DNA from: Fennellomyces sp. T-0311
Lineage: Eukaryota > Mucoromycota > Mucoromycetes > Mucorales > Lichtheimiaceae
Length of the DNA: 64,000 bases
Direction: 5' to 3'
Assembly (NCBI GenBank): GCA_025266875.1
Contig: JALLLT010000059.1
Location: 144,099-208,098, forward strand
This document shows positions 5,609-52,700 of this stretch, one piece after another. Every line of letters starts with the position of its first letter. The stretch's first letter is position 1. The position numbers and the translations under genes were made by a program. Below the pieces are notes generated by a model, which was not told the DNA's origin, did no database searches, and saw nothing but the letters and a program-made list of their open reading frames with translations.

Positions 5609-8608
5609 CTAAGCCTTCTTATCCAAAAAATCATAAAACGCCTTTTGTGGAATTTCCACATTTCCTATAGAAGGACATTTAGTTCAACGGCTCTGCCAAC
5701 GTCATTTATGGTTGCCTGGTTACCTATCATTTTCATTCTCTTCTTGCCCTCCTTCTGCTTCTGCAGAAGTTTCATCTTTCGAGACACATCACCACCATAC
5801 TATAGAAAAGATTTAGTATCAACAAAGGACTGTCCTGCCATATCTCGCTTGGTGAACTCACGCATTTCGCTGTGACATTTTTTCGGAGCGCAGGTATTCT
5901 ACAAAAAGAATTGGGTTGAGAATAAGTTCGGTTGTTGATTTTCTTTTGCTCCTTACGTTTCACGGGCGACAATTTTACCACCGAGAGCTGTCTGGATAAC
6001 AATCTCAAACAGTTGCTTTTGAATTACATCCTTGAGTCGTTTAACCCAATCTCGCCCGACCATCTCGACCTGCGACCGATGAAGAATCACAGATAATGCG
6101 TCCACTGGCTTGTGATTGAGAAGGACGGACATCTATTCAAAATAAAATAGGTGAGTTGCGCACTGTAGATGATTACCATACAACTTTACTTTGACAAGGT
6201 CGCTTTCTTCATATCCTGCTTCTTCATAGTCAAACGTCGCGTATCCCGATGATCTGCTTTTGAGTTCATCGTAAAAGTCCGTGACAACTTCGGCTAGCGG
6301 CAAAATGTATTTCATCATGACTCTGTTTTCGTCAACAAAAACGTAATCCCGTTGCTCTCCACGTCGGCTCTAATGTATTACTTGGTTAGTGAATAGATTG
6401 CGACTCTCAAAATAATCGATGCGTACACCGCAGAGCTCAATCATCTTCCCCATATATTCCTAACGATGAAGAAATCAATCAAGGTGAACCAAGGAGCAGT
6501 ACTTTCGCATAGTATTACCTCCGGGAAAATCATCGTTGCTAATACCATGGGCTCTTCCAACCGGGCGACTTTTAAAGCACGTTCGTCCGAATCTGGGAAA
6601 TCAGAAGGATTACGGACTATCTTGGTACTTTTATCTTTATAGACGACTGGGTAGGTCATAGTTAGTTGTGTGGTCTGTATGCATCAATCGCCTCAACGCA
6701 CCTCGATATGGTACTGTCGGTTGAGTGACGATAATATTTGCCTCATATTCCTGTCCCAGTAAACAGTGAGAAAAGCTATGCTTCGTAGTCATTCTCTACA
6801 GACGCTCACATTTTCCAATCGTTGTCGAAATACATCCATGTGCAATGTTCCCAAAAAGCCAAGACGCCATCCTTGACCTAGAGCATGACTGTACACTATA
6901 ATTTAAATGACTGTCATCACAACACTTGTTGTCATACAAACCTTGTTTCTTTGTGAACAGAAACACTTGCATCATTCAGCGTAAGCTTGGTAATAGATTC
7001 ATCCAGTCGGCGAAAGTCGTTTGTGTCGACTGGGAATATACCAGCAAAAACCATGGATTGCGCAGGTTGAAAACCAGGAAGTTCCTCAACTTTTTGTCCA
7101 ACGTGATAAAAGGTATCACCGACACTAGCCTCAGAAGCGGTCTTCATTCCGCATACAATATATCCTACTTGGCCAGCATGCCTAAAATTCACATATGTTA
7201 GTTTATTGGTATTGTTGACCTTGTTGGAAGGGGGTGTGCTTACAGATAACCAGTTGAAACTTGCTCTGGATGCATAATGCCAACCTAGCATTCCGTTAGT
7301 GATTATAATTTTTTTGTTTGTCTCCACAAAAAGAAAACTTACTTCGGATACCTCGTATTTGCTTAACGAATGTGCGGACGTAATCTTATCCCCTTTTGGA
7401 AATGAAATAATTAGGGCCATGGAAAAACAGAGCTTTGTAAACCGTACCTTTTTTTATTTTCCCATCAACTACACCCAGCATACACACGACACCTACGTAC
7501 TGATCATACCACGAGTCGAACAAAAGAGCTCGGAAGGGTTTGTCTTTGGATCCAGTAGGTCTAACAACCATCTGTATTAGTAAAACATTTCGTGTAAAAC
7601 GGATTAGCTTACGCAGGTATATTTTCGATGACGTTGGGTAGGACCGAGTCAATGTTTACCCCAGTTTTGGCCGAAATCTGTGCTACCATTAAGTTGCGTC
7701 GTACTAATTGGATCTAAAACTTACCTTGAGAATTGAAGAGGTATCAAGTTCGAATGCACTTTGGATTTGCTTGATTGTTTTTTCACAATCTGCCCCAGGC
7801 AAATCCACCTTGTTCAGCACAGGGATAATATGGAGACCTTCCCCAAACGCGAGGTAAAAATTTGCCACCGTTTGGGCTTGAATTCCTTGAGCAGCATCGA
7901 CCAGTAGTAGCGTGCCTTGACACGCTGCCAGGGAACGAGATACTTCATAGCTGAAATCCACGTGCCCCTGTTTGGATGTAGAGCTCCAATATCAGCACAC
8001 ATAGCATGTATCATGTTGTACTCACCATACCGGTGTGTCAATAAGATTGAGCAAATACTCCTTTCCATTGAACTTGTAAAACATGGATACAGTCTAACAA
8101 ATACAAGGATAAGCTCAAGCGAGATCGAGTTTTGCGGTTGAAAAATACCTGTGCTTTCACAGTAATGCCGCGTTCGCGTTCAACTTTCAGTTTGTCGAGA
8201 ACTTGCTTATTTGATCCAGTGGATGAAATCGTATTTGTTAGTTCGAGCAACCTAACCAAATCGAAACGTTTATTTACTACACTCGTAGTGAATCTAACGT
8301 TACCTATCAGCCAGCGTGCTCTTGCCGTGATCTTCATTGTTGACAATTATTATTATTATTATTACAAGATTATCTGTGCTATACAGCGATCTGGTACCAA
8401 CCAATGTGTGCTATAATGCTAAAGTTGCGAATATTCTCGGCTGGAAAAGCTTCCATATCAATATTTCTCGAAGGATCGGCCGCTTTCAGTTTCTGTGAAA
8501 ATCATTTTATTGACACATTGACCATGGTAGCTGGCATAAATTGTATACCTCGGTTGTCGTTCGTTTCGAGTACCATCGGCTTATGCCAGTAGTTACTGGT
8601 AGCCTCAT
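5609..8608 (-). CDS. GUF1: mitochondrial translation factor GUF1 (EF4/LepA)
   Basis: GTPase of the LepA/EF4 family, associated with mitochondrial ribosomes and fidelity or stress recovery of translation. Twenty exons with 19 introns of 47-70 nt give 636 residues, a normal length. G motifs are present: AHIDHGKST (P-loop), [10 protein letters not shown] (switch I), DTPGHVDF, NKVDLP and SAKTG. The LepA-specific part follows ([55 protein letters not shown]). The last intron (5665-5723) must be removed to give the typical end [16 protein letters not shown]. The chosen start at 8608 gives an N-terminus with Arg, Ser and Thr ([16 protein letters not shown]), suited to mitochondrial import. It is divergent from HSP78 with 158 bp between the start codons. 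Confidence 0.95.
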
Positions 8609-8766: not shown

Positions 8767-11700
8767 ATGTTGCGATTCCACCGAACCATTCCAGTGAGTG
8801 CACCAAGCTACAGAGGAGTAGCTAGATATAGCACGAGCCTTGTTCGTAGACATGGAACGAAGAGCGGTTCTTTGCCTTCCCCAAACATGCGTGCAGCGGC
8901 AGTTCTAGCAATAGCTAGCCGCGCAACCATACTTCGCGCAGTCTCTGTGTACACAGTGAAGCGTTTTTATAATGGTACGCACTGAGGCTTATTGAGTATG
9001 AAAAATTTGTATCAAGGATCTGATGGAACTCATATTTCGTTTTAAGGCGGTGGAGGAATGCCAGGCGGAGGATTTCGTTTAAATCCGAACCAGCAAGAAG
9101 AAGAGCAGAAAGCGTTGGAGCAATATGTACTGCACGGATATTAAGCCGCCTTCTCTAACTAACCAAGCGGTTTATGTTAGGGTATCGATCTTACAGAAAT
9201 GGCGGAGAAGGGGAAGCTCGGTATGTTAATGCAAGGTTATTGTCGGACTTGTTTGACTCATCCAACCACTCTCGTAGATCCCGTTATCGGCAGAGACGAA
9301 GAGATCCGACGAACAATTGAAGGTAAATTCTATCGAATGGTTCACTCTTAGTAACTTGAAGCTAATATACGTCACACTTAGTGTAAGTATTTGGCAAAGC
9401 ATTATGCTAGCTAGGACTGAACACCTATCTCACAGGTTGGCTCGTCGTACGAAAAACAACCCTGTTCTAATCGGTGAAGCTGGGTAAATAGTCGATGAAT
9501 TTGAATTGTTATGCAAAGGCACTAAACAGATTTTGGTAGTGTTGGAAAGACTGCTATTGCTGAAGTAATTACAGAAGCCATGGTTCCCTAGAATTCTGGG
9601 TATCATTAACTGATCGTATTGCACAACAACAGGGACTTGCGCAGCGAATTGTGGCGAACGAAGTACCGGAGTCAATACAAGGAAGGCGCGTTGTCGCTCT
9701 GGACCTGGGTGTAAGTAGTGCTGTATCTATGATAGGTCATTTCAATACTTAGGAATGATTGCGACTGTAGAGTTTGATAGCAGGCGCGAAATTCCGGTAA
9801 GCTAATCCCTTAAAAAGGCTACTTTTGCTAATATGTTGACAATAATAGTGGCGAGTTTGAAGACCGTCTGAAGGGTGTTTTGAAAGAAGTCACTGAAGCC
9901 GAAGGCAAGATCATTCTTTTCATCGATGAAATACACAACCTTCTTGGACTTGGCAAGTCAGAAGGCGCAATGGATGCTGGTAATCTCCTAAAGGTATACA
10001 TAGGTAGCCTTTCCTTTCAGAACTTCACTGACTATCTAATGATTCAATGCAGCCTGCTCTTGCTCGAGGTCAGCTTCGTTGTGTTGGCGCGACGACTATT
10101 GATGAGTATCGCAAGGTAAATATATCTCGATGAGTTTTATCCGATAAGGTTTTAACTTGACATGGGTTGAAGTACATCATGGCAGACCCCGCTTTGGCAC
10201 GACGTTTCCAATCAGTTATGGTAAGTTCTAATAGGCGGTACTATTTTAAAACAGTGGCTGACCCGTAAATTCAGGTTGAAGAACCATCAGTAAGTCAATG
10301 GTTATTAGTGTTTGATGATACATTAATACCTTTTTCATCTCAAAGGTTCAAGATACGATTTCAATTCTGGTATGTGAATATGCCATAAATGATATTAACG
10401 TATTTGCTCATAAAACCAATAGCGAGGTTTAAGGGAACGATATGAAGTGCATCACGGTGTGCGCATTGCGGTAAGTTCCTGTTTGGAGGAGGCGTTACAA
10501 ATGATCTAATACATTACATCCAGGATTCTGCACTTGTTTCTGCTGCTATTCACGCGCATCGATATATCTCGGATAGGTATGTCTGGCTGCAACGATCTCG
10601 GTCCTGATTTGGCTCCATTAATAAACTGTGATAGATTCCTCCCGGATAAAGCAATCGATCTTGTCGATGAGGCTTGCTCAAAGTTGAGATTACAGCAAGA
10701 GAGCAAACCTGAAGCTCTTGAAAAGCTCGATCGTCAGATTATGACTATGCAGATTGAGCTCGAATCTCTGCGGAAAGAATCAGATACGCTTTCTGTGGAG
10801 AGACGGGAAAAGCTGCAATCGGAATTGGACGAAAAGCAGAAAGAGAGTGAACGGCTTTCAGGTGTCTGGAACGAAGAAAGGTTAGCCCAATATATGCTTT
10901 GATATACAGCTCTATTTTATATATTACATCCACTAGACATAAACTGGATGAAATTAAACGAACAAAGGAGGAGCTGGAGCAAGCTCGTGTTGACTTGGAA
11001 TCAGGTAAGTGCTTCGCATAATAATAGACACTGAGCTCCATTATATAACACGATGTTTCTTATAGCCCAAAGAAGTGGTAACTTCCAACGAGCATCCGAG
11101 CTGCAGTATGGATTGATTCCCAACCTCCAGAAGAAGCTTCCAAAGGATACTACAGAAGAAGAAAATCCAGACTCTTTGATTCATGAGCGTGTTACATCTG
11201 ATGATATTGCACGCGTTGTAGCTCGCATGACCGGTATCCCAGTTCGCGTAAGTTTATAAGTCATGTTGTTATCCTCAGTGCCCTAACCTTCGCTTCAGAA
11301 TTTGATGCGCGGGGAACGTGAGAAGTTGCTCCACATGGAAGACGTCCTGCGTGAACGTGTTGTTGGTCAGGATGAAGCTATAACAGTAAGCAAGTCATGT
11401 GCTATGACACTTCTAGAAGCAGCTGATTTACGAAACTATCTTTCCTAAAGGCTGTATCGGAGGCGGTCAGGTAAGCGCTGGCTTGAAAAGTGTAAGTTTC
11501 ATTACTGAAGCCGCCCTCTTAAGATTGAGTCGTGCAGGTCTCCAGAATCCTTCCAGACCCATCGCGTCATTCATGTTCCTGGGTCCTACTGGTGTAGGAA
11601 AGGTACTTTATGTCTGGTATTTTGCTACAATTCGGATATTCACTCTCGGCGTGGTTAGACCGAACTTTGCAAGACAATTGCCCAATTTTTGTTTGACACT

Positions 11701-12778
11701 GAAAATGCCATTGTCCGTGTCGACATGAGCGAATATATGTAAACTTACGAGCACCATGTCTATTGCTGTTGGCATGTAACTAACTACCTATTTTAGGGAG
11801 AAGTTTGCTGTGAGTCGCTTGATTGGCTCTCCCCCCGGCTATGTTGGTCACGAAGAAGATGGTGAATTAACCGAGGCAATTCGACGAAAACCGTATGCAG
11901 TAGTTTTGCTTGATGAAATGGAAAAGGCCCATCGTGACGGTGCGTTTTTCAATAGTAATCCGAATAGCAAAGTACTAATGTTGCACCTATATTAGTTTCC
12001 AATCTCCTTCTTCAAGTATTGGATGATGGTGTGCTCACTGATAGTAAGTTATTTCTACTAAGGGTAGCTGATACGGTTGCTAAAGTAGGCGTCTTTTAGG
12101 CAAGGGGAGGAAAATTGATTTCAAGAATACTATCATTATCATGACTTCCAATCTCGGTGCTGAAGCTCTCGTTTCTGATACACGTGAAGAAGGTGTTGTC
12201 AGTGCTCGAGCTAAGCAGAGCGTTATGGATGCCCTTCGACACGCTTTTGCACCTGAATTCCTCAATCGTGTTGATGAAATGGTAACTAATTTCCATAATC
12301 CACATATACCATTTTACTTCATACTTATTATTTACCACAGGTCGTCTTCAACCGTCTATCTCGAACAGCTCTTCGCGACATAGTTGATGTGCGCTTGCAT
12401 GAAGTGGAAGAGCGTGTACGTGACCGACGGATCACAATCGATGTCGATATGAAAGCACGGGATTGGCTTGGTGAACGGGGATATGATCCATCGTATGGTG
12501 CGCGACCACTTAATCGCCTTATCATGAAACAAATCTTGAATCCGTTGGCGCGTTTGTTGATTGACGGGGGTGTAAGAACTGGAGAGTCGGCCAAGATTAG
12601 AGTCGCAACGCTGCCATCTGGTGAAACTACTCTCGAAGTACAACGAAACCATGTTCCTGGTGAACCTGCTAATGAGCAACAAGAAGAGCAAATGGCGCCA
12701 GTTGGCGACGAAGAAGAAGTACAGCGAGATGAATATGAGCAGAAAAAGGAAGATGGCAAGGATAAAAAGCCAGAGTAG
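8767..12778 (+). CDS. HSP78: mitochondrial ClpB-type disaggregase HSP78
   Basis: AAA+ hexameric unfoldase of the mitochondrial matrix that works with Hsp70 to rescue aggregated proteins. Twenty-seven exons (26 introns, 51-72 nt) sum to exactly 2,520 coding nt, 839 residues. The N-terminus ([10 protein letters not shown]...) looks like a presequence and leads through a Gly-rich linker straight into NBD1, so the ClpB N-domain is absent, as in fungal Hsp78. Visible motifs: [15 protein letters not shown], Walker A1 GEAGVGKT, Walker B1 ILFIDEIH, a coiled-coil M-domain in the exon at 10635-10880 and after it, GIPVR, Walker A2 [24 protein letters not shown], Walker B2 [22 protein letters not shown] and GARPLNRLI. 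The tail is rich in Glu and Lys. The frame requires a 1-nt exon at 9382. Very small exons also occur at 10275-10289 (15 nt) and 10346-10369 (24 nt). Confidence 0.94.
9382..9382 (+). other. candidate 1-nt microexon of HSP78
   Basis: Exon 4 ends at 9322 in phase 1 (GAA G). The next recognisable exon starts at 9436 and needs two more bases to keep [16 protein letters not shown] in frame, but only one (G at 9436) is available after the CAG acceptor. Between them lies CACTTAG, then T at 9382, then GTAAGTAT, a strong acceptor and donor flanking one base. Splicing it in makes codon GTG (Val). The two introns would be 59 and 53 nt, normal for this gene. Every alternative I tried meets a stop at once. 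Confidence 0.72.
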
Positions 12779-14670: not shown

Positions 14671-15782
14671 CTAGTTACGACTATTCCATGCCATATTAAT
14701 AGCCGCATCCCGTGCAACATTGGATCGACCGATTCGCCCATATGCATCGTCCTTTGCTTCCTTGAATGTATGACCAGCTTCCTTGTAATGGTCAAAAGTT
14801 TTCTTGTAGAGATATATTGCCAGGAGGCCCATACCGATCCAGCAGATGGCCGCCAATAGTGCAATGATGCCTGTGATGACGAACCCATCCGTGAAGAGGG
14901 TCACCACAAGAATCAACCCGGCGCCGCCTCTGCAATCAACTGTTAGTTAATAATAGTCACGCTACCTAGCCCCAGAGTAAGGATACATACGTGTTTGGGA
15001 TGCCTATAGCCTTGTAGACGGTGTAAAGGATATGGAAGCCATTGAAGACGAAATAGAAGTCTAACATTGGAGCTGTTAACGCACGATTCCAACCCAATAT
15101 CCAAAAACATACTGTAATACAGGGAGACTTCCTTCATATATGCGTTATAGACAGGTCGATACCACAGGAAGAAGCTCGCAAGTGTGTGCGTGAACATTTC
15201 GGTCAGGGCAATACCCAGGTCCGTCGGAGCACTGGTTATCGACTCCGGGTGTGAAAAGAGCAGGCACAGACATGCCACAAAGTTCCACACTAATGTGATC
15301 TCGAACCACAGCCATTCGCGATAAAGCCACCATACCGTCGACTGGTGATTCAAGGGGATTTCAGTAGCAATGTTGAGATACATAATAGGGAAGCAGGGAG
15401 GGAAGTTGTTGGCATGAGGCCGGCGCTGTTCCTCAAGCTGTGCTTCACGCTCTGCGAGTTCGCGTTCTTTTTGTCGTAATGCTTCCTCCCTTGCATTGAA
15501 GTCATCATTCAACGGTGCCCCTTTGCTGCTGCTGCCGGCTCCTTGCTGCTGCTCATCAATGAACACTTTTTGATCGTGAACATTGGCGAAAGGATCGTGC
15601 TGGTCATCTGGGAATTGTCGAAAGCTAGTGAATTCATCGCTGTTTCGATGTCTGTTGCCAAGATGATCCTGCTCAAGCTCGTATGAGGTATCTTGATTGT
15701 TGGAGTTCAATGCCGAAGTGATTGTTGGATCCTGGAAAGGGTTGGAAGGATCATCGAATGGGCTAGCTTGATGATGAGCCAT
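14671..15782 (-). CDS. secretory carrier-associated membrane protein (SCAMP)
   Basis: Tetraspan protein of post-Golgi and endosomal vesicles involved in membrane trafficking. Three exons (15113-15782, 14991-15060, 14671-14929; introns 52 and 61 nt) give 332 residues. The cytosolic N-terminus carries DPF/NPF-type endocytic motifs (SPFDDPSNPFQDP, HDPFANV). A charged coiled coil follows (REEALRQKERELAEREAQLE), then the SCAMP signature around NFPPCFPIMYLNIATEIP and four hydrophobic segments, with FFLWYRPVYNAYMKE after the second. The start at 15782 is the ATG directly before the NPF region; the frame is open further upstream, but that sequence looks unlike SCAMP. No breaks. Confidence 0.93.
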
Positions 15783-16398
15783 TTTTTGGTAGTTCTTTTC
15801 GATTAAGAAGAGGCACGTCGGGTCAGGCTTGAAGCGCACATAAGTAGCATGAAGCAACCTGATTGGGCGAGCATTTATGCCTTCATTATTCATCCCTCGT
15901 CTGTTATGGGCTCATTTGAATCCAAGCCAAGCCAGTCTAAGGAGCATCTGTATATTATAGAAGCTATCCATAGAGTTGAATTTGGTTGCAATGTTCTATC
16001 CCGTAGTACCACATATAGGTATTCACCTGTTATTCGTTTTTTGTAAATACGTCCCATTCGTTCATATTACAGCTATTTTGAGCGTAATCCCTTTTGAAGG
16101 GCTTTGCTACGGGCACTCCTAATAGCACTCTATTTTATTAAATAAAGTAACTATTTGTTACGCAGCATGTAGAAGACTATACCTTATTTATAAGATATAG
16201 CATGGAGTATTATAAAACGGAGTGCCATATCAAAATGAAGTATGAAGTGTAATCGGTAAAAATTCAGTTTAGGCGTCACTCCCTATTTGATTATTTTGGG
16301 CTCTCCCACTGGTAACCACAAACTTATATTTAACCCACCTAACCTGGCCCGATAAGCATGTCTGGGCTGACTCGAATTAATTTTTCAATTTTAGAAGG
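15783..16398. other. SCAMP upstream region
   Basis: No gene recognised. It should hold the SCAMP promoter. A short imperfect inverted repeat (GGCACTCC near 16,113, GGAGTGCC near 16,220) may be a tiny foldback element. Confidence 0.4.
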
Positions 16399-27178: not shown

Positions 27179-30100
27179 TCAAGAGTTAAACTGTGTTGCC
27201 CAATGGTCATCATGCTCGAGAACAGTACATGCAATCTTATGTGCGGCGTTAAGTGGTGGCAGGATGAAATCAGATAAGTTGTCGTGCAGTTGAATAAGTA
27301 CAAAATGGTTGCGGCGGACGAGTTGCATGATGATGGGCTTTGGAAGTATATCCGGAACATTGAATCCAATAGGCAAAAATAGTTGAGCAAAGCGACCTGT
27401 ACCAGTATAAATTGCAATAGGCGTGAGGAAGGCATCAGCAGCAATTTGGGCGCAGTCAGGAGTAGTTGTGGTGAGAGAGTTATTAGAGATAGAATAGGTA
27501 ACAAGAATAGAATTCGTTGAGAATCTGAATAATTGTATGTCCTTTATTATGGATGAACTCTCTCTCTTTTACATCTTTTACTGGAGATTCTAATATCCGT
27601 TCCTGGATAAATGATACTTGGTCGAGGACGTATCGGGTTGCGTTTTCATCTTACGTTTTACCGACGACGGCAGCTATCGACTCCGTGTACTCTGTGATAG
27701 GTGCATGTCCTGTAGAACATCATTCAGCTTCCTTGAAACCGGTGTAAGGTAATACCGTTCATATCTTAGTCATCAATACTCTTCCAGAGTGTTCGTCTGA
27801 TGGAATGTGCTAGAATGGATGTTTGACCGATCTCCATTGTGTGCATACATGTAGTGGTTCACCACAGTAGTAAACCAATATTCGGCTGGGCAAAAGTCTT
27901 CCATATACGTCAGTGTCTCGAGTAATCCTTTGGTTTTGTAATAAAAAGGTCGTTCTGAGTACAATCGATGCCGAGCAAGTAGTGTTGATCGCATGGAGAG
28001 TCTGATGGCTGGCCATTCTTCTTGATCTCCAAAAATATGTTGCGCGATACATCTGAACCCACAATGACCATCGCCTTTGACGTCCCAAACAGTGTTGACA
28101 AATTTTTTATCCAAGAGACCGTCCACAGAGATACCATTGATGACAACCGATGGCGGTAGATCCGCAGGTATACTCGAAGCCCTATCGAATATAGATTATG
28201 AGTAAAGCAATACAAACACATAATACAATACCAACCTTTCGTCAAATATGACGCTTTCTTGATCATCCTCCTCATCGCACTTGTTGATGTTACTCTGCCC
28301 GACACCGTTGTTTACAGTTAATTTTATCTTTTTGACGCGATTTTCCTCGATAGTCTTCTTCTTTCTTTTCTTCTCGGCTTTCTCGTGTGCAGCAATCGTT
28401 TTTTCTTTTAGTTCAATGGCAAGTGGGAGGCGTTTGGTTCCTTTTGGGCGGCCTTTGCTTGACTTCAAAGGAGCTGGTTCATTTAGTTCTTTCAATGCAG
28501 GAATAGATGTAACATTATTCACAAGCTTCGTCAACTGGTCTAGGATTGTTACACGTTGTTGGTCGTCATGTAGTTTCAAAAGTGCTTGCTCAAAGGAATA
28601 AACAGTTCTTTTGATCGTAAGGTCCGTTTTGGATACATTGATTTTTTTTTTCTTGATTGCTGTAAGTTACATCTACTATGCTTACATCAACAGAAAGCCA
28701 CAAAATATATATTATCCACTTTACCTTGGGTAGGTTCAGATTGCTTTTCATTCAGGTGCCAGCGGGCAGGTACAGATGAAAGTGATATGACCGATTGGTT
28801 GACTAATAGGTGCTTGCAAGGTATGTTGAAGTTTATACGGACAGGACAGGTGCAGTTGATATTTGGTTTTGTGCTTTTTGTACGCTTTGCGCATTCCATT
28901 TTGATTTTATCGATCGCATAACGCGAAACTTTGCCCAGTAACTCTACCAGCACTGCTTTGTCATTTGCAGCCATGTACGGATCATCTCCAAACTTTTGAA
29001 TTTCGGTACTGTACAGGATGGCCTCCCTCTATTAATAACATAAGTACACTGTTATAAATTACAAAACGAAATGCTTATACCTGGTTACGTATGAAATTGT
29101 CGATTGTCAACATTGCACTGCTAAGACTCTTGGCGGAACAAAGTTCCTTCTTGATGACAGCGTGGGCACCTTCAACTCGTTGGGTCGTTGTATTACCAAA
29201 GTGCAGATAGTGACAAGTATACGCTCCAACCCATGCTTTTTTCTTTTTCAACGTGCTTTTCGGACGTTAGCACTATACATATTGGCGTACAAAACACACT
29301 TACAATTCAAGGTAGCTAATGATATGATCGGCTTTTGTACTAAACATCGCGATGCTGACATATTCTTCTTTGGCTTTATCGACGTCCTCCAAGGTACGGC
29401 TATATATCAATTTTTTCACGGTCTTGATCAACTTGTCTTGCTGGTCTTGAGTATCGAATCCTTTTAAACAATGCTTTTTAAAATTGTTGATGATGTGAAA
29501 AGTGCAAAGAAGTTGAACGCTGGATGGGAAAACATTGCTGACCGCACATAGTTCGGCTGCTGAGTTGTCCATTACAATCGAAATAGGTTGAAGTTTGGCT
29601 GGTGCATATACAACATCAAAAAGCTGAGTTGTTGTCCACTCATACGATGCTGTCGATTCATCCGAAATCCATGCTCCAGCAATTGCAAACGTCATCAGTG
29701 CCTTGGCACCCACATTCCCCATCCCAACCATATCCACATATGGCATTTTATATCTGTTGGTTTTGTAAGTGGCGTCAAGAATCAAGACCTCGTAAAACCG
29801 GCGTGCTTTGTTGATGCTTGATGGATGACAGAAAAAGATGCTTCGAAGACAGTTTGTAGAATCATACCGGTACCGAACGTGGTATCCCTTACAGTCCAAG
29901 TCGTCAGCCAGTTTTTTCAACTGTCCTGGTTTTCCATCTTCTACACGGCGCATTTGATATCGAATGTTGCTGATGTCTTTGGGGCTTGCAGTGGCATTTC
30001 CTTCGTCATCACGAAGTGCATTGGCAATCGTTTTGGGGGTAGCATCGGTGGCAACCATCTTGACCACATGATTATAGTTTTCTTGGGAGAGTTGGCGGTG

Positions 30101-30421
30101 CTGGTGGAAAATCGTTGGGTCCTTTGACATTTCGTGGTTATGTGTATATACAATGCTTGTTACAATCCAATGATCCTTGACCGCTACAGCCTTGATCTTG
30201 AATGGGCAATTGATACGGAAAGACGGACGTTTGACTTTTACTGTGGTACTATCGAGATCCCAGTTGTTTCGAAAGTTGCCTCCCATGGTACATTGCCACC
30301 AAGTATGGTTGGAGGAGCTAGTGCAGATGCTGACCGCAAACCCATTCTCTTTGGCATATTCGCGGCATGCCGCCTTCAATTCGTCGCGAGAGATAAAAAC
30401 AGAGTTGAGCAATTGTGACAT
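27179..30421 (-). pseudogene. MULE transposase fused to an OTU cysteine protease, split by an LTR
   Basis: Order along the protein: FAR1/WRKY-GCM1-like N-terminus (CREYAKENGF, CPFKIKA, HNHEM); MULE DDE core with LILDATYKTN, PISIVMDNSAAE and TTTQRVEGAHAVIKK; SWIM zinc finger CTCPVRINFNIPCKHLL; an AT-hook-like GRPKGTKR and a Lys-rich stretch; then an OTU domain with GDGHCGFRCIAQHIFGD (catalytic Asp and Cys) and, far downstream, RRNHFVLIQL (catalytic His). Introns fall after FFSTKADHIISYLE, after NFIRNQ, after EPTQ and after IFDER. The LTR at 27467-27866 splits the OTU domain between EYWFTT and PDCAQIAADAF; otherwise the frame is open to TGA at 27179. Before that insertion it was probably functional. 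Confidence 0.9.
27467..27866 (+). mobile_element. solo LTR (400 bp), TSD GTAGT, inside the OTU domain
   Basis: Ends TGTGGTGAGAG...TTCACCACA, flanked by GTAGT at 27462-27466 and 27867-27871. It adds an in-frame tail and stop (…TNTLEEY) to the upstream half of the MULE protein. It is the innermost insertion of complex 1. Confidence 0.93.
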
Positions 30422-35656: not shown

Positions 35657-38600
35657 ATGGCACGAGGAAATGGTCATGGTCGCAACCCTGCCGCTGTCCC
35701 CTAGGGAAGTGGCATGGGCAGTAGCAGTGGCGGCGTACCATTGCCTGGCCTTTCTCTTCCTCCCCCTCTCCAACAAAATGGAATGTATTTCCAACCACAG
35801 TTCTTCAATCAACAAGCAAGCTATGCTTACGATGCTGTTAGGGCTGGACAGCAAACCTTTGAAGAGGCCAAGGCGACAAGAGCCGCAAACACAAACAAGT
35901 CATATACGCCGAAGCAAGAAGAATTCCTGCGTTGGTGTGCCTGCCGCTGTCCGCCAGACCATACAAACCAAATTGTCGATGATGCAAAAGTTCATCTTTT
36001 TCTGGTCGAAGAGGTACAGTTTCTGTTTATCATCTTTGTGTAGAATAGAGCCACTTACATGTTCTATAGGTTGTTTTGCGTGAAAAGCAGAAGCCGGGAA
36101 GAAAGAAGGTTTTGCCTGCCATCACCAATTCAGAATCATCTGCTGCTGCTGCTGCCCAAGAAACACATTTCACTGAACTTGCTGCTGAAGCTGCCGCTGC
36201 TGCCGTTACCATGTCGTCTGACTCTCCTCCTCAGAGCGCCACTGTGATTTCGTCGCCCCCCTCTGCCACATAATCATCATCCTCTACTGCTCCCCCGGCC
36301 AATACTACCATTACCATGTTTGCTGCTGCCGGCGTGGATGCTGCCGCCGATGCCGTCTTATCTCGTATGCCTGCCAATGAAGAAAAAAGAGTTGGTCTTG
36401 CCACCGTTCTCGCGTACATCAACTCTCTCGTCGATCTTTATACAATGCAGATCGAGAAAGACGGCTGCTTTTCCCGACCTCATCCCCGTAGGCCCTATGT
36501 TCAAGCTTTGGTGAGGAAGCTAAAATACCAAGAAAGCACTTTGAAGCGTGAGCGATATGATGATAGAGGTGCGGGCACGATTGCAGATGGATACACAACA
36601 ACCGAGGAGATGAAGGTTATGGTCGACTACTTTTTTGGCAAAAACACGGCGGAACGATTGCGAAACTGCACCTCGTTTTTGCTTGCTCATTACGGTTTGC
36701 TACGTGGCGAAAGCATTCGAAAAATGGAGTTTGCCGATTTACAGACCATGTTGCTGGAGAACGAAGGTGTCACTGAGTGCCATGCATTAATTATGGTTTT
36801 GTTGCAAGGAAAAACCAACCAGAAGGGCCGTGTCGAATTTGCTGCTTGTCTCAGGAATGCCAAGGTTCAGATTTGTCCACAGATGATCCTTTCAACATAC
36901 CTCTTTTGTCGGTGGCATGTACGTGGCGAGCAGTTTCCAAATTTAAACACAAACAAGGATTGGTACCGGCTCAAACTTATCAAATCCTCGGGCAATGACA
37001 ACACTGCAGAGTTATCGTATCCAGCACACTTAGCAGCAATTAGTGCAGCATTCAAGGAGGTCGGCTTGCACTCGAAGGCAAAAACACACGCAATGCGTGG
37101 GTCGGGAGCACAGATGGCAGAAGTTTTGGGCACTAGCGAAGCAGCAATCCAACGTTTGGGCAGGTGGAATAGCAATGCATTGTCAAAGAAGTACGTGACC
37201 AATATCCCAAGAGAAGCATTACGAACGCTCGCAGGTTTTACTCGCCAAGTGGGCCAATATTACCTACCACGTGCGACTGTCACTCCTCCTCTTGAACTTT
37301 GTCGGAAGGTGTATGTGATATTCAACAATAGTAAAAGGCAGGTAAGTGACGAGACTCAAGTGATGACTGATTTATTTCGTATGTTGAATCATCACTTTAA
37401 ATAATAAAAGCTTATTCTCGAGGGGTTGGATCATTGACATGGTTGTAAGGCACATGAACCGCTGTGGTAACCAGAGTTATGTGGGTTTCACTAAGATAGG
37501 CAAGGTTATTACGATGAACGCATGTCAAGACAGAGATCTGGCTGTAGATCGGAAAATTAAAGTAACCCGTTGTCAATAAGCAAACAAGGGTAAATGATGC
37601 ATAAGCCATAATCATGTTGTGGATACAACAGTGTACCCGTGGGTCGATACTTGGCGCCAGCGCTTAGACAGTGGAAATATGGAACAATCGTCGCTTGCAG
37701 CGGATGGGTTTTTAAAGTTGCTAGAGCAACTTCGGATTGTGTTTCTACAGGATTCTGTCCTTTTGAAGAAGCAGTACCCGCACCATTTTGTTTGGAAAGA
37801 TCCTCTTTTCCAAGACGACCTGTACCTGCAGTTCGAAAGGTGCGTGATGAATAGCTTTAATTACTATGGTTAACTTACTGTATCAACTATTGCTAGTGAT
37901 GTGAATGATGCTTTGGACGTGGAAGTTGAACCAAGTGAATTGCTGCTACAGAGGGCTGTACCGATCATCGAGAGCAGACTTGGAGTTCTACAACAGCAAA
38001 TCGCTCTACAATTTCAAAAGCAAAACGAGTTCATCAACTCTCTCGCTGGTCTTCTTACTTCTCTCCAACCTCTTGCTCAACTCGGTCAACAATCGCACGA
38101 CATCCAAAATGCTATCCAACAATGGCAAGATCTTGTGTGCGGTCGTACATCGTTGAGCTTTTCGCTCAACATCAATCAACAGCAACAACAACAGCACCAG
38201 GCGCAGCAGCAACACCAGCATACAAATCCCTCTGTAGGAGCAACAGTAACAGCAACACCATTGTTCTCTACAACAACAACATCATCATCACCGTTCCCTG
38301 CAGCAACAGCAACAACGTCATCGCCCTCGGCAGCAGCAGCATCGTCTCCAACAACAGCAACTGCAACATTCACAACAGCAACAGGAGCAAACCCTGTGCT
38401 GCTCCCACCGCCATCAACAGAAGAATCGCCACAACCGATTCCAAAGTACAAAATGTGTCGAGGGGTGGAAACGTTCAAGACCTTGTGGTGCGAGTTCTTT
38501 GAGGGGTTAGTGGTTGATCTGCCAAACGGCGGAAAAACACGCCTGCCCAAAGTTGACGATCTCGAAAAAAAGTACAAAAAAAGGTGGCGCGAAGAATCTG

Positions 38601-41023: not shown

Positions 41024-42374
41024 CAGTCATACACAAAAAGTATTCAGACGATTTTCAAAAATTTAAATTTTTGAAAAGGACCTGATAACTTTAACCATGT
41101 AAAACCAACCTTCCCAACCATACTACAAGATTCAAAAAACAAAGAATAAAAGATGATGTTATATAGATGCATAATCAAAGAAAAAAATAAGATTGTCTAA
41201 TAATGGGTGTGGCCACCTTGGGCATTAATCACAGCTTGACAGCGAGATGGCATACTAGCAACGAGGCTTTCTGCAAGCTCAAGGCTTAGATTTCGCCATT
41301 CATCCTGGAGACAGACCTTTAACTGTTCCTTATTTTTGATGTGGTGTCTTCGGCTCTAAATCCGCCTTTCAAGAGCTCACCAAACATGTTCGATCGGGTT
41401 CAGATCAGGACTTTGTGCGAGCCATGTGTCAAACCCTCTAATCTGCCATCTAGTCTTATACCAGGTTGTGTATGACCCTGTATGGCAGCTGGCACCATCC
41501 TCTTGAAAGATGAATTCACGTTCTGGATGATCATCAGACAGAGCGCGAAGAAACAGAAGGAAATTGTCTGACAAACAGTTGACATATGCATCCTGGTCTA
41601 CGGTGCCATCCAAAATTACAAGAGGTCCAAAGCCTCCTGCCCAGAAGCAGCTCCAGATCATAACCGAACCTTTGCCAAACTTTACTGTTGGTACAATATG
41701 GTTCCGGTCATACCGTTCGCCTTCGCGCCGAAGTACACGGGCCCCTTCATCATTGCCCCACACGGTAAATCGCGATTCATCAGACCAAATGACATTGCGC
41801 CATTGATCCACTGTCCAGTTGGCATGTTCACGAGCCCAGTCCAGCCTCTTTTGCATGTGCGCCGTCGTAAGTGCAGGCTTACGTGCAGGAGAGTACGAAC
41901 CAAACCCCAGCCTCCCCAAATAGTTGATAATTGTGTTGCGGTGGACGTTGATACCAACTTGCTCTAAAGTGACCTGGTGCGCGGCATATGGCTTGAATGG
42001 ATCAGCGCGTACAGACTTTACAAGCGCTCTTTGGCCTCTTTCAGTTATGGTACATGGTCTTCCACTTCTCTTCTTGGGCAACGTTGTCCCTGTTTTCTCC
42101 CAACGATGGAAAATACTTGACACAGTTCCCTTGGGAATGCCAAGTTTGGTTGCTATGCCACCAAATGATAGACCTTGCTCGTGTAAGCCGACGATGCGAC
42201 CACAAGTGAACTGGTCGTACTCTTGACTTTTTTCACGCTGTGTATTAGTTGTGTCGCTAAGTGGCATGGTAGTTTTATTGAGAAAGTTTAGGAAAAGAAA
42301 GGGTTTGAAAAAGATGTTGTGTCAAAATTTACGCCAAATATGCAGGTCGTCTGAATACTTTTTGTGTGTGACTG
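41024..42374 (-). mobile_element. Tc1/mariner element, 1,351 bp
   Basis: Terminal inverted repeats start CAGTCATACACAAAAAGTAT at both ends (one difference: CACACACAAA on the right), flanked by TA (41022-41023, 42375-42376). The transposase reads in minus orientation. Confidence 0.95.
41197..42267 (-). pseudogene. Tc1-type transposase with two in-frame stops
   Basis: From ATG 42267: paired helix-turn-helix region (RIVGLHEQGLSFGGIATKLG, GTVSSIFHRWEKTG, KRSGRPCTIT), then catalytic blocks VIWSDESRF, IFQEDGASCHTG and SPDLNPIEHVW, giving a DD35E-like spacing by my count. After HVW a TGA (codon 297) and a TAG (codon 304) interrupt; the frame then runs on to MPSRCQAVINAQGGHTHY, a normal Tc1 C-terminus. 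All catalytic residues precede the first stop, but a full-length product of 356 residues is not made. Confidence 0.93.
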
Positions 42375-46742: not shown

Positions 46743-49700
46743 ATGTCAGAACAAAATCCTATCCCAGATCTGCACTTGTTGCTCCGCACATTTTATAACA
46801 ACGATCCCCAGCAGGACACTCAACTAGAGGCTGTTCAATCGGCGAATCAGCTGGAGCAATGCACGCCAAGTCAACCCGTTGATCATCCGCAGCGCCAAGA
46901 AGCCGTTGATCGTCCACATCAGCAAGCAGCAGCGGTCAATCTTCGTAGATCAGTGCATAGTGCTATGATTTTTCACCCACGACGCATCGGTCCCAATAAC
47001 AAGCGTTATCTCATCATACCGAATAAGAGTCATTTGAGACGTGTCATCGCGTCTTCACGTCTCATGGATGAAATGGAGGTTGAGGCGATCGAAGAAACCA
47101 TCAAAAGGCTTGCCAACATTGCGGTAAAGCAGCTGGCTACGAAACTTGGAGACGGTCGTGCAATTTATGCCACTTCTTGGACAGACATTGATGACAGTCC
47201 GAAGGACGCGGCCGTAGATGACTTTGCTCAGCTTGTCTAGCTCAAGACAGGCGTCGCCTTTTCTGACTGTGAAAACGAATGGTGTGCGAGACATGTTCTT
47301 TCTGAACATTGGGATAACAAACACTTTTATCGCCATGGAGGCAGGTAAGTGGGATGAAGTAGTATAGATCAGGTATGAACGAGTGCATCAGGGCCACTCG
47401 TCATCGTAGAGCTCCTCAACAAAACGGCGAGCCTGGTGATGAGAGGGCTTCTGACGGAACATCATTGGACCAAGACGATGGTACTTCTGGTCTCATCATT
47501 GCCAATAGAGCAGCTGACACGGCGCGAGAGTAAGTTCTGTAGCAGTTTTGACATATAGGAATTAATCTTCTTTCAGTATTCCATCCAGTGAGATGCCAGA
47601 CCAAAGTTTAAGTGCGATTCCTGAAGCAGCTACCATACAAGAGTAAGAGTTATATCTTATGATGGCTGGTGCATAGTTCGTTGACGTCCGATATTATATT
47701 TAGGGAAATGCCGGAGCAACAAGCAAGTGCCAGTTCGCATGTCTCAACCCACCAGCCAGTTTGTAGCCTTGTCAGCACACCTGCACAGTAAGGGTGCTCT
47801 CATTATGCTCCGAACAGAGAACTCCATTTCCAAAATTGATGATAGGAAATATTTTTTCCATTCCACCTTCCAAAATTAGGCTTCGCGGATGTCTCCTATT
47901 TTGATAACTGCTTCTCGGTGGAAATACCACCGCGAAGACTCGCTCGGATCGATATAAAAGGAAACTGTCACTTCTTCTGTGCTTTAAAAACGCAATCAGA
48001 GTATTACAAAATATATGCCTCTTGTTTCTCATTGTCTCTCTATCTTCTTCTACTATTTTTTTTATTATCAACATTTCTTTACCATGAACAACAACAGCAT
48101 TCCACCGCCAATTCTCACCCAACGTCCCAGACGTAATAATGCTGCAGAAAGAAGACGCCGTCGAGCAGCATTTATGCAACGGCTGACAGAACTTATTGCG
48201 CCTTCAGTACAGGCTATCTGCTTTATTGATGCGAGCATTGTCGCAGCTTTTGCAAGCTCGCCTCACTATTTTCGTGGAGCAAAAGTTAGCCGAACGCATG
48301 GTGCGCAATTCTGGACGTTGACGCATCCAAACCTGAACGACGACGATGGCTATGACAGTTACAGATGGCATTACTGCATGAAGAAATCAACTTTGGAATG
48401 GCTTATCAGTACTTTGTCAACACATGACGCATTTGCCTCAGACTCTCCTAGAATGACACCAGTATACATTCAAGTCTGCTGTGCGGTGTGGCGTTTTGCA
48501 AACACACATGCTGGATACCACATGTTTGAAACGCAATTTGGTTTAAGCCAAGGGTCGTATCATAACTTCACGATGCGATTCCTAAATGCCATCTGCGACG
48601 TTCACCGGCGACAGATCAGATGGCCAAGCACACCACAAGAAGTACAGCAAGCAGCACAAGCCTTTTCGGCACCTACTGGACTGCCGAGCACCCACGATGC
48701 AGGCAGAAGGCTACAGGGAGCGATCGGGGCTATGGATGGCAAAGTCATCGTCATCCACAAGCCTACTAGTAACGGACAGCGCTTTTGGGATCGTAAATTA
48801 CACCATTCGATCAATTTACTTACTGTTTGTACTGCTGATGGAAGATTCTCGTATATAGAAGCTGGTCAATCAGGTATTGTCAACTACGTATTGAAATATC
48901 GATATATTACTCAGTCTAATGTATTTTCAAATCAATCTATAAGGTCGAACCCATGATGCACGTACGTTTGCCAATAGCTCTCTTAATACGAAGCTATTGA
49001 ATGAATGTCGTATCCTGACATACCAGTCATCCATTGTCTACAGACCTTTCCATCTCAGCCTTTGTTACATCCGTTCCTTTATTTCGACATCAACAACCGC
49101 ACAGTTATCTATTGGCCTGTTCACTGGCTCGTGTGTCAGGGAGACCTTGATCTGGGTTCAGACTTCAAGAAGGACCATTCACGTTAACTCAGTCTCTGCA
49201 TGATTATCCGCTCCTTCGTAATAAGGCAGTATGGTCATTAGGGATTACGGCGATAACACGGATTCGGCTCTGATAGAAAAGCATTCACCTTCTCCGTCCC
49301 GACTCATCATCATTATAAATAGAGAGTAGTTCTCTTCAATAAAACATTATCTTATTTTTGGTCTCGTCATTTGAAGCTTTCCAATTGAGCGATACCACAT
49401 TTTTTTTGACGAATTCTTTCGAACTCTACTCTAAACCTTTTTACATACATTACCTTACCTTTTCGTCCACCTCGTTACCATGTCTGAACATTCCACGAAC
49501 TCCATTTCGGTTCAAGAAGATGCTGGTCAAGGCATTGCCGATCTGAGAGCGGAGTTGGCTCGTGTAACCCGCGAATTTACCAATGCCGTTGCTTCCGGGA
49601 ATGGTAATGCTCAAGAACTCCAGGCCCACATGGTTCGGTTGCAAGAAGCCATCTCCTTTGCCGCTGCTGCCCAAGCTGTTTTCGCTCCTGCTGTAGCCGC

Positions 49701-52700
49701 AGCTTCCGTTCCTGATCGTTTGGGTCGTGCACCGTCTAACCTGCCATGCCTGCAATGGTCTGGTTATGTGTGGAAACCGTCGGCGTCCACTTTCCCCACT
49801 TTAGACGATTGTCTTACCAAGTTTGAAGATGTCGTTTATGGTGATGGCTGGGATATTGACAAGTCTTGGCCACGATTCCTTCCTATGTTGCTCTCCCCTG
49901 AGCATCGTTCTTGGTTTGCGGTTAACCTTGAACCGTACACCGATAGGCCCTGGTCCTTTGCTCGCTCCCGTCTGGTCGAAGATCTGGATGTTAATGAAGC
50001 TGATCGTGTAGCGGATTTGACAGATCAGTTGATGAGTGTACAAATGCGTTCGTCGGAGACTGTTGCGCTTTTCACCGCCCGCTTTGAGAAGCTCCGCCGC
50101 GATGCCAAAGCCGATGACAACTTCGTTATGGTGAACAAGTATATCGATGCCCTCTTACCTGACCTTCAAGACCGGGTGTATACTGCTCGTGCTGGTTTGC
50201 CGTCGCACCAGAAGAACACTTTGGCTGGTATTTCGTCTCTCGCTCTCGCTCTGGAGAAGGGCGTCAACAAGGCTCGCTCCCGCAAGGCCAATCGGACTCG
50301 GGACTCCGCTCCTTCCTCTTTGGGGGATGATTCCTCCTCTACTGCCGCTTCTTCCGGTGGTTCGTCGTCTCGTAGAGATGGCAAACGCCGCCGTGTGGAG
50401 AGACCCTCGCAATTCTGTGAGCTTCACGGGAATGGTAGTCATGACACCAAGGACTGCAAGGTACGAGCTAAGGTACTAGCTCAAAGTTCTTCGGTTGGTT
50501 CGAGTGCAAGCATGCACAACCCCTTCCGGGCCTCGTCTTCTGCTGGCTCATCTTCGGGCTCATCTTCGGGCTCTTCTTCGGGTTCGTCAGGACCCTCATC
50601 TGCATCCTCATCTTCCTCTTCTTCTGCTGGTGCCTCGAGACGTGGCAATACCTGTCACAAGTGTGGTGCTCCTTGGCGACATGGGCACAAGTGCCAAACA
50701 TTGGCGATCCGTTCGTCTGATGTTGTGGAGTCCGAGCCTCCTGCTCCTCCTAAGAAGAAGGATGATGATGACGACGATTTGGACATCGTCATGGGTGATC
50801 TGGACCTCGCGGTTGGTCCCTGTACAGATTGTAAGTCTACACAGTCTTCACATGAGTTTTCTTTCGAGAATACACGCTCATATTACATTCCTGTTTATCT
50901 AGAAAAACACAAGTTCCTTGCGCTCCTTGATCCTGGCGCGACACATAGCACTGTTTCCTCGTCGCTGTGTAAGCAAATGGGTTGGCAAGTGGAGCCTCGG
51001 CCTGGTCATGTGCATACTGCACACAAAGGGACTCTTGTACCTAGATTAGGAATTACAAAGAATAAATTACTTATTTCTTGCAATGACAAAGCTATCTACC
51101 ATCACTTTGAAGTGTTCGACTTACATGGTAATGCCGATATTGCCATTGGCAATGACATCAAACATCACTTTGGTATATACATTGGCAATCTTCCTTATTG
51201 TTGGCACAGACTAGGAGTTCCCAGAGATCCTCCTACGATGCCAGATGAGTATATCCCAAATGCCAGTCCAGCGGGTAGCAAGGAACAGCAGCAATCGTTT
51301 CTCGATGCTCTTGCCCCATACCTGGATGCTAACGCGGCTATACCAAAGGATGCCTATTGTACGATGCCAGAAGCAGTGGTACGTTTACCCACTCCTGCAG
51401 GGAAAGTTGCATACCGCTCGCCATACCGAGTTGCAGATGCACTGAAACCAGTTCTTCGGAAACAGCTGGACGAATGGTTAGAAGCTGGGGTGATCGCAGT
51501 ATCTCCTACTTACACACCATTCAACAGTGGCTTGACTTGTGTCCCCAAACGCGATCCAGTCTCTGGTGAACCCATTGCGTATCGTTGGTGCATGGACGTA
51601 CGACACATCAATGTCATGCTCGATGACTACAACTTCCCTATGCGCGATATACCTTCCATCTTTTCCTCGTTATCTGGTAATACGGTATACAGTGTCTGTG
51701 ATGTGACCGCAGCTTTCAATACCATGCCAATAGCAGAAGAGGATCAATTCAAGCTCGGCATGATTGTCGATAAGACTTGCTATATCTGGAAGCGTGCTTG
51801 TTTTGGATTGAAGATCCTTCCTCAACAATGGAGTGCTTTGCTGACTAAGTTGACGCACGATCTCCCATTTGTGCAAACCTATCTCGATGATTGCATTGTG
51901 GCGTCGCCAGATCTGGAGACACATAAGTTGCACGTCATTGAATTGGTGAAAAGATTGACATCCGTGAACCTTACCTTGAACAGGAAGAAGTGTCACTTTG
52001 CACAAAAGTGTGTGTACTTGTTGGGATTCCAGATCTCGTCTCTTGGTGTCGCACTTGACCCTCGAAAGGTGTCCAACGTGCTTGATTGGCCTAGACCTCA
52101 GACAGGTCGCGATGTACAGAGCTTTCTTGGCCTGTGCAATTTCTTCCGCTCGTTCCTACCACGTGCTGCAGAATTGATGCGTCCACTTGATCAGTTACGA
52201 AACGCTCGCTCTCTGGATGGTCTCTGGACTATCAAACACACCGAGGCATTCGAACGATTGAAGGAAGCACTTTCACGCGCACCCGTTTTGAGCAACGTGG
52301 ATATGAAGCATGAGCTTCGTCTTGCTACAGACGCTAGTTCAACTTCCATTGGAGGAATGCTGTTCCAAGTCATTAACAATCAATATCGTTACATTGGTTT
52401 CGTGGCTCGAGCACTCACCTCTAGTGAATCCCGATATGGAACTACAAAGCGTGAATTGTTGTCAATCGTCTACTGTCTACAGAAATGGCGTCAGTGGTTG
52501 TGGGGTACACGTAAACCTTTCACGGTTTACACCGACCATCGCGCGCTTACGTTTCTTCATACCCAACCGGTTGCAAACCAGATGATTATCAATTGGTACG
52601 ATGTCATTGGCGATTATTCATTTCGAGTAGCGCACATTCCTGGCATTATGAATCTGCTGCCTGATTACTTGAGTCGTCTGTTCTCGCGTCCGTTGGAAGA

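Follow-up and report, generated by a model that had tools for sequence, protein, structure and literature searches.

A probable one-nucleotide exon in the mitochondrial chaperone gene HSP78 of Fennellomyces, with signs of the same arrangement in related fungi

In the HSP78 gene of Fennellomyces sp. T-0311 (Mucorales, Lichtheimiaceae), the reading frame appears to depend on an exon of a single base. From the sequence, we consider it very probable that T9382 is a constitutive one-nucleotide exon of this gene. This reading is supported: no other model found left the frame open, the introns at their usual size and the ClpB motif without a gap while using splice sites of acceptable quality. Exons of this kind are already known. 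Within the open-licence literature searched, the novelty lies in the gene, its lineage and the apparent age.

The gene lies in a 64,000-nucleotide stretch of DNA (the window) at 144099–208098 on contig C138 of a 45.6 Mb assembly (182 contigs). Its model was assembled manually from splice sites and conserved protein sequence, and the features of the locus and of the remaining window are presented in Table 1. When T9382 was counted as an exon, the frame was intact and the sole stop was terminal, and the 27 exons summed to the 2,520 coding nt originally predicted. All 26 introns measured 51–72 nt. Excluding the two that flank T9382, the mean length was 57.5 nt (n = 24, SD 5.0, range 51–72), and the flanking introns are thus of normal size, as had been claimed. 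Several exons were also small (15, 20, 24, 25 and 26 nt). Exon 13 (10275–10289, 15 nt) encodes VEEPS, and the public Lichtheimia hyalospora model P0020 has a deletion at the end of this exon; this model seems to have skipped small exons.

The predicted protein is a ClpB-type double ATPase (Walker A motifs GEAGVGKTA and GPTGVGKTE) without the N domain, which is absent in HSP78 generally. It matched the NCBIfam model TIGR03346 (chaperone_ClpB) over positions 143–845 of 853 with 1133 bits, under the cut-off of 1232. Identity was 87% and 85% to proteins named heat shock protein 78 in Phascolomyces and Dichotomocladium, respectively, and 89% to a Zychaea P-loop NTPase. A protein search of the Fennellomyces genome returned HSP78 once, as well as two ClpB/HSP104-like genes that matched strongly, on contigs C90 and C117, and weak hits on C35. 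In the C90 paralogue the motif corresponding to the T9382 region was intact, with no intron there. The public annotation of HSP78 (P0001) starts at Met 41 of the manual model and shows the residues ARTEHLSHR where the micro-exon lies; a correction is probably needed.

Elsewhere in the window, two exon-like GTP_EFTU pieces lie beside HSP78 and perhaps belong to a GUF1/LepA-like gene. Further features were a SCAMP family piece, three transposase genes, a long ORF resembling a retroelement polyprotein, and an ORF with an NDC10_II domain, a fold that also occurs in Crypton-type mobile elements.

Table 1 Features of the HSP78 micro-exon site and of the surrounding window (positions within the window).
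Feature	Position	Strand	Description
HSP78, mitochondrial ClpB-type disaggregase	8767-12778	+	27 exons, 2,520 coding nt, 839 aa (manual model)
Exon 4	9278-9322	+	45 nt, phase-1 end GAA G
Intron 4	9323-9381	+	59 nt, GTAAAT...ACACTTAG (acceptor end CACTTAG); donor score 6.8, acceptor score 3.7
Exon 5 (predicted)	9382	+	single T, middle base of Val codon GTG
Intron 5	9383-9435	+	53 nt, GTAAGT...TCTCACAG; donor score 9.3, acceptor score 6.3
Exon 6	9436-9483	+	48 nt, phase-2 start G TTG GCT CGT CGT ACG AAA AAC AAC CCT
Rival acceptor AG of P0001	9409-9410	+	88-nt intron 9323-9410; 9411-9435 then coding
GTP_EFTU pieces	7707-8346	-	two exon-like pieces; 64 bits, second 22 bits (below Pfam cut-off)
SCAMP family protein piece	14946-15893	-	PF04144, 105 bits
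MULE/FAR1 transposase	29303-30421	-	mobile-element gene
ORF with NDC10_II domain	36316-37401	+	147 bits
Tc3/Sleeping Beauty-type transposase	41380-42267	-	mobile-element gene
DDE_Tnp_4 transposase	48015-48953	+	mobile-element gene
ORF resembling Ty3-type retroelement polyprotein	49480-53487	+	long ORF, judged by eye from the ORF listing

Re-reading of the DNA returned the same end of exon 4, the same limits of introns 4 and 5, the same single T and the same start of exon 6 as the original prediction. Exons 4 and 6 are phase-incompatible by exactly one base (phase 1 versus phase 2), and the base proposed to join them stands in the context AG/T/GTAAGT (9380–9388; CACTTAG/T/GTAAGT). The intron that follows runs GTAAGTAT...CTCACAG. 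The stops described for the three ways of leaving the base out, or of keeping an intron in, were all recovered. Retention of intron 4 gave TAG nine codons after GAA, retention of intron 5 gave TAA immediately, and skipping of the T as one 113-nt intron gave 11 shifted codons and then TAA. When every micro-exon inside the 113 nt was enumerated (AG..GT or AG..GC, length 1 mod 3), only T9382 was stop-free; each of the alternative micro-exons, with GT or GC donors, contained stops. The Val restored by T9382 lies shortly upstream of the Walker A motif of the first ATPase domain, and exon 6 matched the ClpB chain 4d2q_A without a gap through IQVLQRRTKNNP.

The splice sites on either side of the T were scored against those of the other 24 introns, for which leave-one-out scores ranged from -1.3 to 9.2 (donors) and from -2.2 to 6.9 (acceptors). 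The donor of intron 5 is the consensus hexamer GTAAGT and its score of 9.3 stands at the top of the donor range. Both sites of intron 4 fall within these ranges, its acceptor being average, with 15/24 of the others equal or higher. In length, 59 and 53 nt fit the other introns, in comparison to z = 11.1 for a single intron of 113 nt and z = 6.1 for one of 88 nt. The probability of such a site arising by chance was estimated from 1,000,000 simulated 113-nt introns, generated by a first-order Markov model trained on the other 24 introns. Some AG/N/GT was contained in 13% of them, and in 2.2% it left two introns of 51–72 nt. The fraction with such spacing and both sites of at least the observed strength was 3e-5, falling to 9e-6 when a Val codon was also included.

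A canonical in-frame model with one intron does exist, and it had been overlooked in the original prediction. This is the published P0001 annotation, in which an 88-nt intron (9323–9410) is removed and ARTEHLSHR replaces Val, making the protein 8 residues longer. Of the one-intron models (GT or GC with AG, AT with AC, at least 39 nt), 26 were in frame and free of stops. The published model scored highest of these, and its acceptor is a good one, outscoring the acceptor of intron 4 (4.9 vs 3.7). However, its intron is well beyond the 51–72 nt of the gene, and its insert interrupts the stretch EIRRTI(E/Q)VLxRRTKNNP, which was gap-free in the four solved-structure alignments listed (two Hsp104 and two ClpB chains) out of 59 sequences matched. 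Furthermore, inserts at the same site in the models of relatives (Mucorales, Umbelopsis and Glomeromycota) vary in length (2–19 residues) and in letters, as artefacts would. We therefore consider it highly unlikely that the published model is correct. The best 15 of the 26 one-intron models included three with GT-AG ends, and none of those 15 kept the motif. AT-AC models among these 15 had scores far below those of real sites, which argues against a U12-type or otherwise unusual single intron. Minor introns exist in some early-diverging fungi, but U12-like 5' site and branch patterns tried in 9270–9450 gave no match, and this is the most improbable of the explanations considered.

The identity of the residue encoded at the codon also favoured inclusion of the T. 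In a search with residues 98–178, which returned mostly bacterial ClpB, Val was found in 90 of the 97 first-listed proteins, Ile in six, and one was not parsed; the query contained Val, and the set is thus tilted towards Val. The original expectation of a Val as in ClpB is borne out within that limit. Among 138 proteins retrieved with HSP78 and the Rhizophagus protein P0049 as queries, the residue was Val in 72, Ile in seven and Gly in ten, and 49 were not parsed, mostly because the stretch was broken or absent. Two proteins, P0006 (801 aa in 3,315 nt, with 94–96% identity to proteins of Lichtheimia) and P0021 (828 aa in 2,627 nt), were taken as transcript products because a long frame occupies most of a short contig, and both read EVLARRT. 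The search with P0049 gave further Glomeromycota models and no Glomeromycota transcript.

The Gly residues point to another possible explanation, namely a single intron of 112 nt that is non-canonical at one end, either GT..CA before G9435 or TA..AG after G9323; the codon would then be GGG (Gly). EGL or QGL, which requires exactly one extra base, occurred in 10/69 named models, is derivable from the Fennellomyces genome too, and could in principle be a real residue left by such an intron end. That a non-canonical end should adjoin an AG/T/GTAAGT pair of such quality would nevertheless be a coincidence. Gly was also found in 0/96 parsed proteins of the residues 98–178 search (the set tilted towards Val), both transcript-like proteins read V rather than Gly, and the three models of Phycomyces blakesleeanus disagree at the site (G, V and GNKLYIYVNIR, an 11-residue insert). 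The Gly models may instead stem from a cDNA aligner fitting the extra T as a mismatch onto a G at the intron edge. We give the 112-nt intron as little weight as the published 88-nt one.

To determine whether the junction is also troublesome in relatives, we compared public models across all HSP78 junctions. This control comprised 68 named annotated proteins of Mucorales, Umbelopsidales, Endogonales and Glomeromycota, including P0001; at the codon itself 69 models were counted, P0142 being present in this set and absent from the control. Both sets exclude metagenome or assembly proteins without a name (including P0006, P0021, P0050, P0056, P0114 and P0115), as well as Mortierellomycota, chytrids and others. 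Relatives were assigned to clades by genus names, with Rhizophagus irregularis and Fennellomyces looked up. Indels occurred at the junction of the two introns in 18 of the 44 assessable models, compared to 16/1,358 for the other 24 junctions summed (P0001 included). Without P0001 the counts were 17/43 and 16/1,334 (Fisher test, P = 6e-19, a value that ignores relatedness, with several entries per species or genus). Since the junction is also broken in the annotations of many other genomes, an assembly or sequencing error in Fennellomyces, in which a base beside the junction was lost and the 113 nt are a single intron, is very unlikely. One added base would indeed restore the frame, but such an error would account neither for the 113-nt length (z = 11) nor for the site pair expected at 3e-5, and HSP78 shows no frame error over the rest of its 2,520 nt. 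We rate it below either of the longer-intron models.

At the codon, 16 of the 69 models had a clean V, 10 had G, and 43 were broken or truncated by an insert, a missing exon, a shift or a downstream start. All 16 clean-V models belonged to Mucorales (seven to Rhizopus), and a clean V was found in 0/18 Glomeromycota entries. In the clean-V relatives, either the arrangement is absent or the annotation is good. Models from one species or genus also differed: the three Rhizopus stolonifer entries read V, V and GR, and the public Lichtheimia corymbifera model (P0030) is truncated at the junction, with L. ramosa and L. hyalospora reading V. Outside Mucorales and Glomeromycota, long inserts at the same codon were also seen in Calcarisporiella thermophila (P0063, VSHMIICLLCIR) and Spizellomyces (P0109, VSVLVKCNN...).

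The form of the errors carried information on the phases of the flanking exons. Among models with an insertion, the first incorrect residue had a G-first codon (A, D, E, G or V) in 16/16 models, as well as in P0004, and this pattern occurred in Mucorales, Umbelopsis and Glomeromycota. This is expected if the upstream exon ends in phase 1 with a G; the test is unambiguous only for the models with an insertion, as 15 of the 31 counted, with exon 6 skipped or shifted, may be naturally G-first. Relatedness among the entries also makes the P values computed for these counts too small. The residue preceding Leu was Arg or Ser in 17/25 models, the 17 belonging to Mucorales and Glomeromycota, as expected where an acceptor AG is read with the third codon base, i.e. 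where the downstream exon is in phase 2, with the caveat that Ser before Leu may derive from TCN codons instead. Phase 1 upstream against phase 2 downstream means that exactly one base is missing. P0008 and P0028, broken models in which V precedes Leu, were rejected as proof of an AG/T/donor arrangement, as a plain phase-1 intron fits them equally. A degenerate exon-4-plus-donor pattern sought in relatives' DNA had 0 matches in viral contigs and 0 in genome contigs.

Together, the relatives' pattern suggests that the one-base exon is common to Mucorales and Glomeromycota, and we infer that it was inherited rather than new in Fennellomyces. Judging from protein models, it is reasonably likely that the common ancestor of Mucoromycotina and Glomeromycotina already carried the HSP78 one-nucleotide exon, that the same codon has kept it for hundreds of millions of years, and that it is misread in most of the public models examined. 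Loss of one or both introns would perhaps have simplified it in some Mucorales.

Regarding the splicing of the site, the major spliceosome would remove introns 4 and 5 sequentially and by intron definition. Sequential removal is proposed because a single base separates the intron 4 acceptor from the intron 5 donor and the two could hardly be occupied together, and intron definition is favoured because HSP78 introns are short. At the intron 5 donor, the complete intronic half of the site would probably compensate for the absent exon side. Intron 5 would be expected to leave first and intron 4 second, since the donor is a full GTAAGT and the intron 4 acceptor is weaker. If the T were skipped or either intron retained, a stop would follow within 11 codons and the mRNA would therefore probably be degraded. 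The process would be akin to recursive splicing, but with one base left behind. Recursive splice sites are zero-nucleotide exons (AG/GT), in which an acceptor abuts a donor and the two are used in sequence. The abutting sites are alike, whereas HSP78 is predicted to keep one necessary base in the mRNA.

The original prediction described one-nucleotide exons as extremely rare; this is fair, but published cases exist (APC11, VPS55, CYP621A and Candida snoRNA host genes). Outside nuclear genes, a one-base exon reportedly occurs in placozoan mitochondrial cox1. A mitochondrial single-base exon is also described for a fungal group II intron pair (PMC12308204). The closest likeness is with CYP621A, a P450 gene of the single genus Fusarium (2026), where the one-nucleotide exon is a G (AGGGT) covered by 18 SRA reads, and which is presented as the first such case for a fungal gene (PMC12940212). 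Both are fungal nuclear protein-coding genes in which a phase-1 exon, one base and a phase-2 exon follow each other. In both the base takes the second position of a conserved codon (the Gly of PKG in CYP621A, Val in HSP78), the intron pair resembles one intron of about twice the usual length, and public models are wrong. Unlike CYP621A, the HSP78 site has a T, lies in a housekeeping chaperone, appears to be spread over two phyla and is known from sequence.

In Candida, snoRNA host genes with single-base exons (2016) are documented by RNA-seq, and both orders of removal and splice-site regeneration have been discussed for them (PMC5033589). They share with HSP78 a fungal nuclear origin, spliceosomal removal and one base between two introns; the Candida host RNAs bear intronic snoRNAs, whereas the HSP78 base completes a codon and the frame depends on it. 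The notion that no nuclear case exists beyond plants and Fusarium is contradicted by these genes (PMC5033589). Among plants, the single-nucleotide exon of Arabidopsis APC11 (2015) lies in an apparent intron of 422 nt and was proved with reporter constructs (PMC4674806). As proposed for HSP78, it is a constitutive one-base exon required for the frame, the annotation wrongly includes intron sequence, and intron definition with recursive removal has been put forward, APC11 differing in being a plant gene (PMC4674806). The 1-nt microexon of VPS55 (2022) is described as conserved between flowering plants and mosses or spikemoss (PMC8831610). It is likewise missing from reference annotations, and the donor GTRAGT after the base is conserved; in some plants it alternates with intron retention, whereas the HSP78 frame needs inclusion. 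In the open-licence literature, with subscription papers mostly outside the search, we found neither an HSP78 micro-exon nor a 1-nt exon in Mucoromycota.

If true, HSP78 would be, within the open-licence literature, only the second nuclear protein-coding gene of a fungus with a one-nucleotide exon, CYP621A being the first. It would also be the first such case among early-diverging fungi, and its exon may be the oldest fungal one. Many public HSP78 models of Mucorales and arbuscular mycorrhizal fungi would then be wrong in the ATPase core (53/69 without V), and the pattern suggests that this oddity is old and has been overlooked by automatic annotation. Annotation failure specific to one junction across relatives could reveal more one-base exons without RNA. 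The HSP78 site would also be a natural system in which to test which intron is removed first, and suggests that the spliceosome of fungi with short introns handles a one-base exon routinely.
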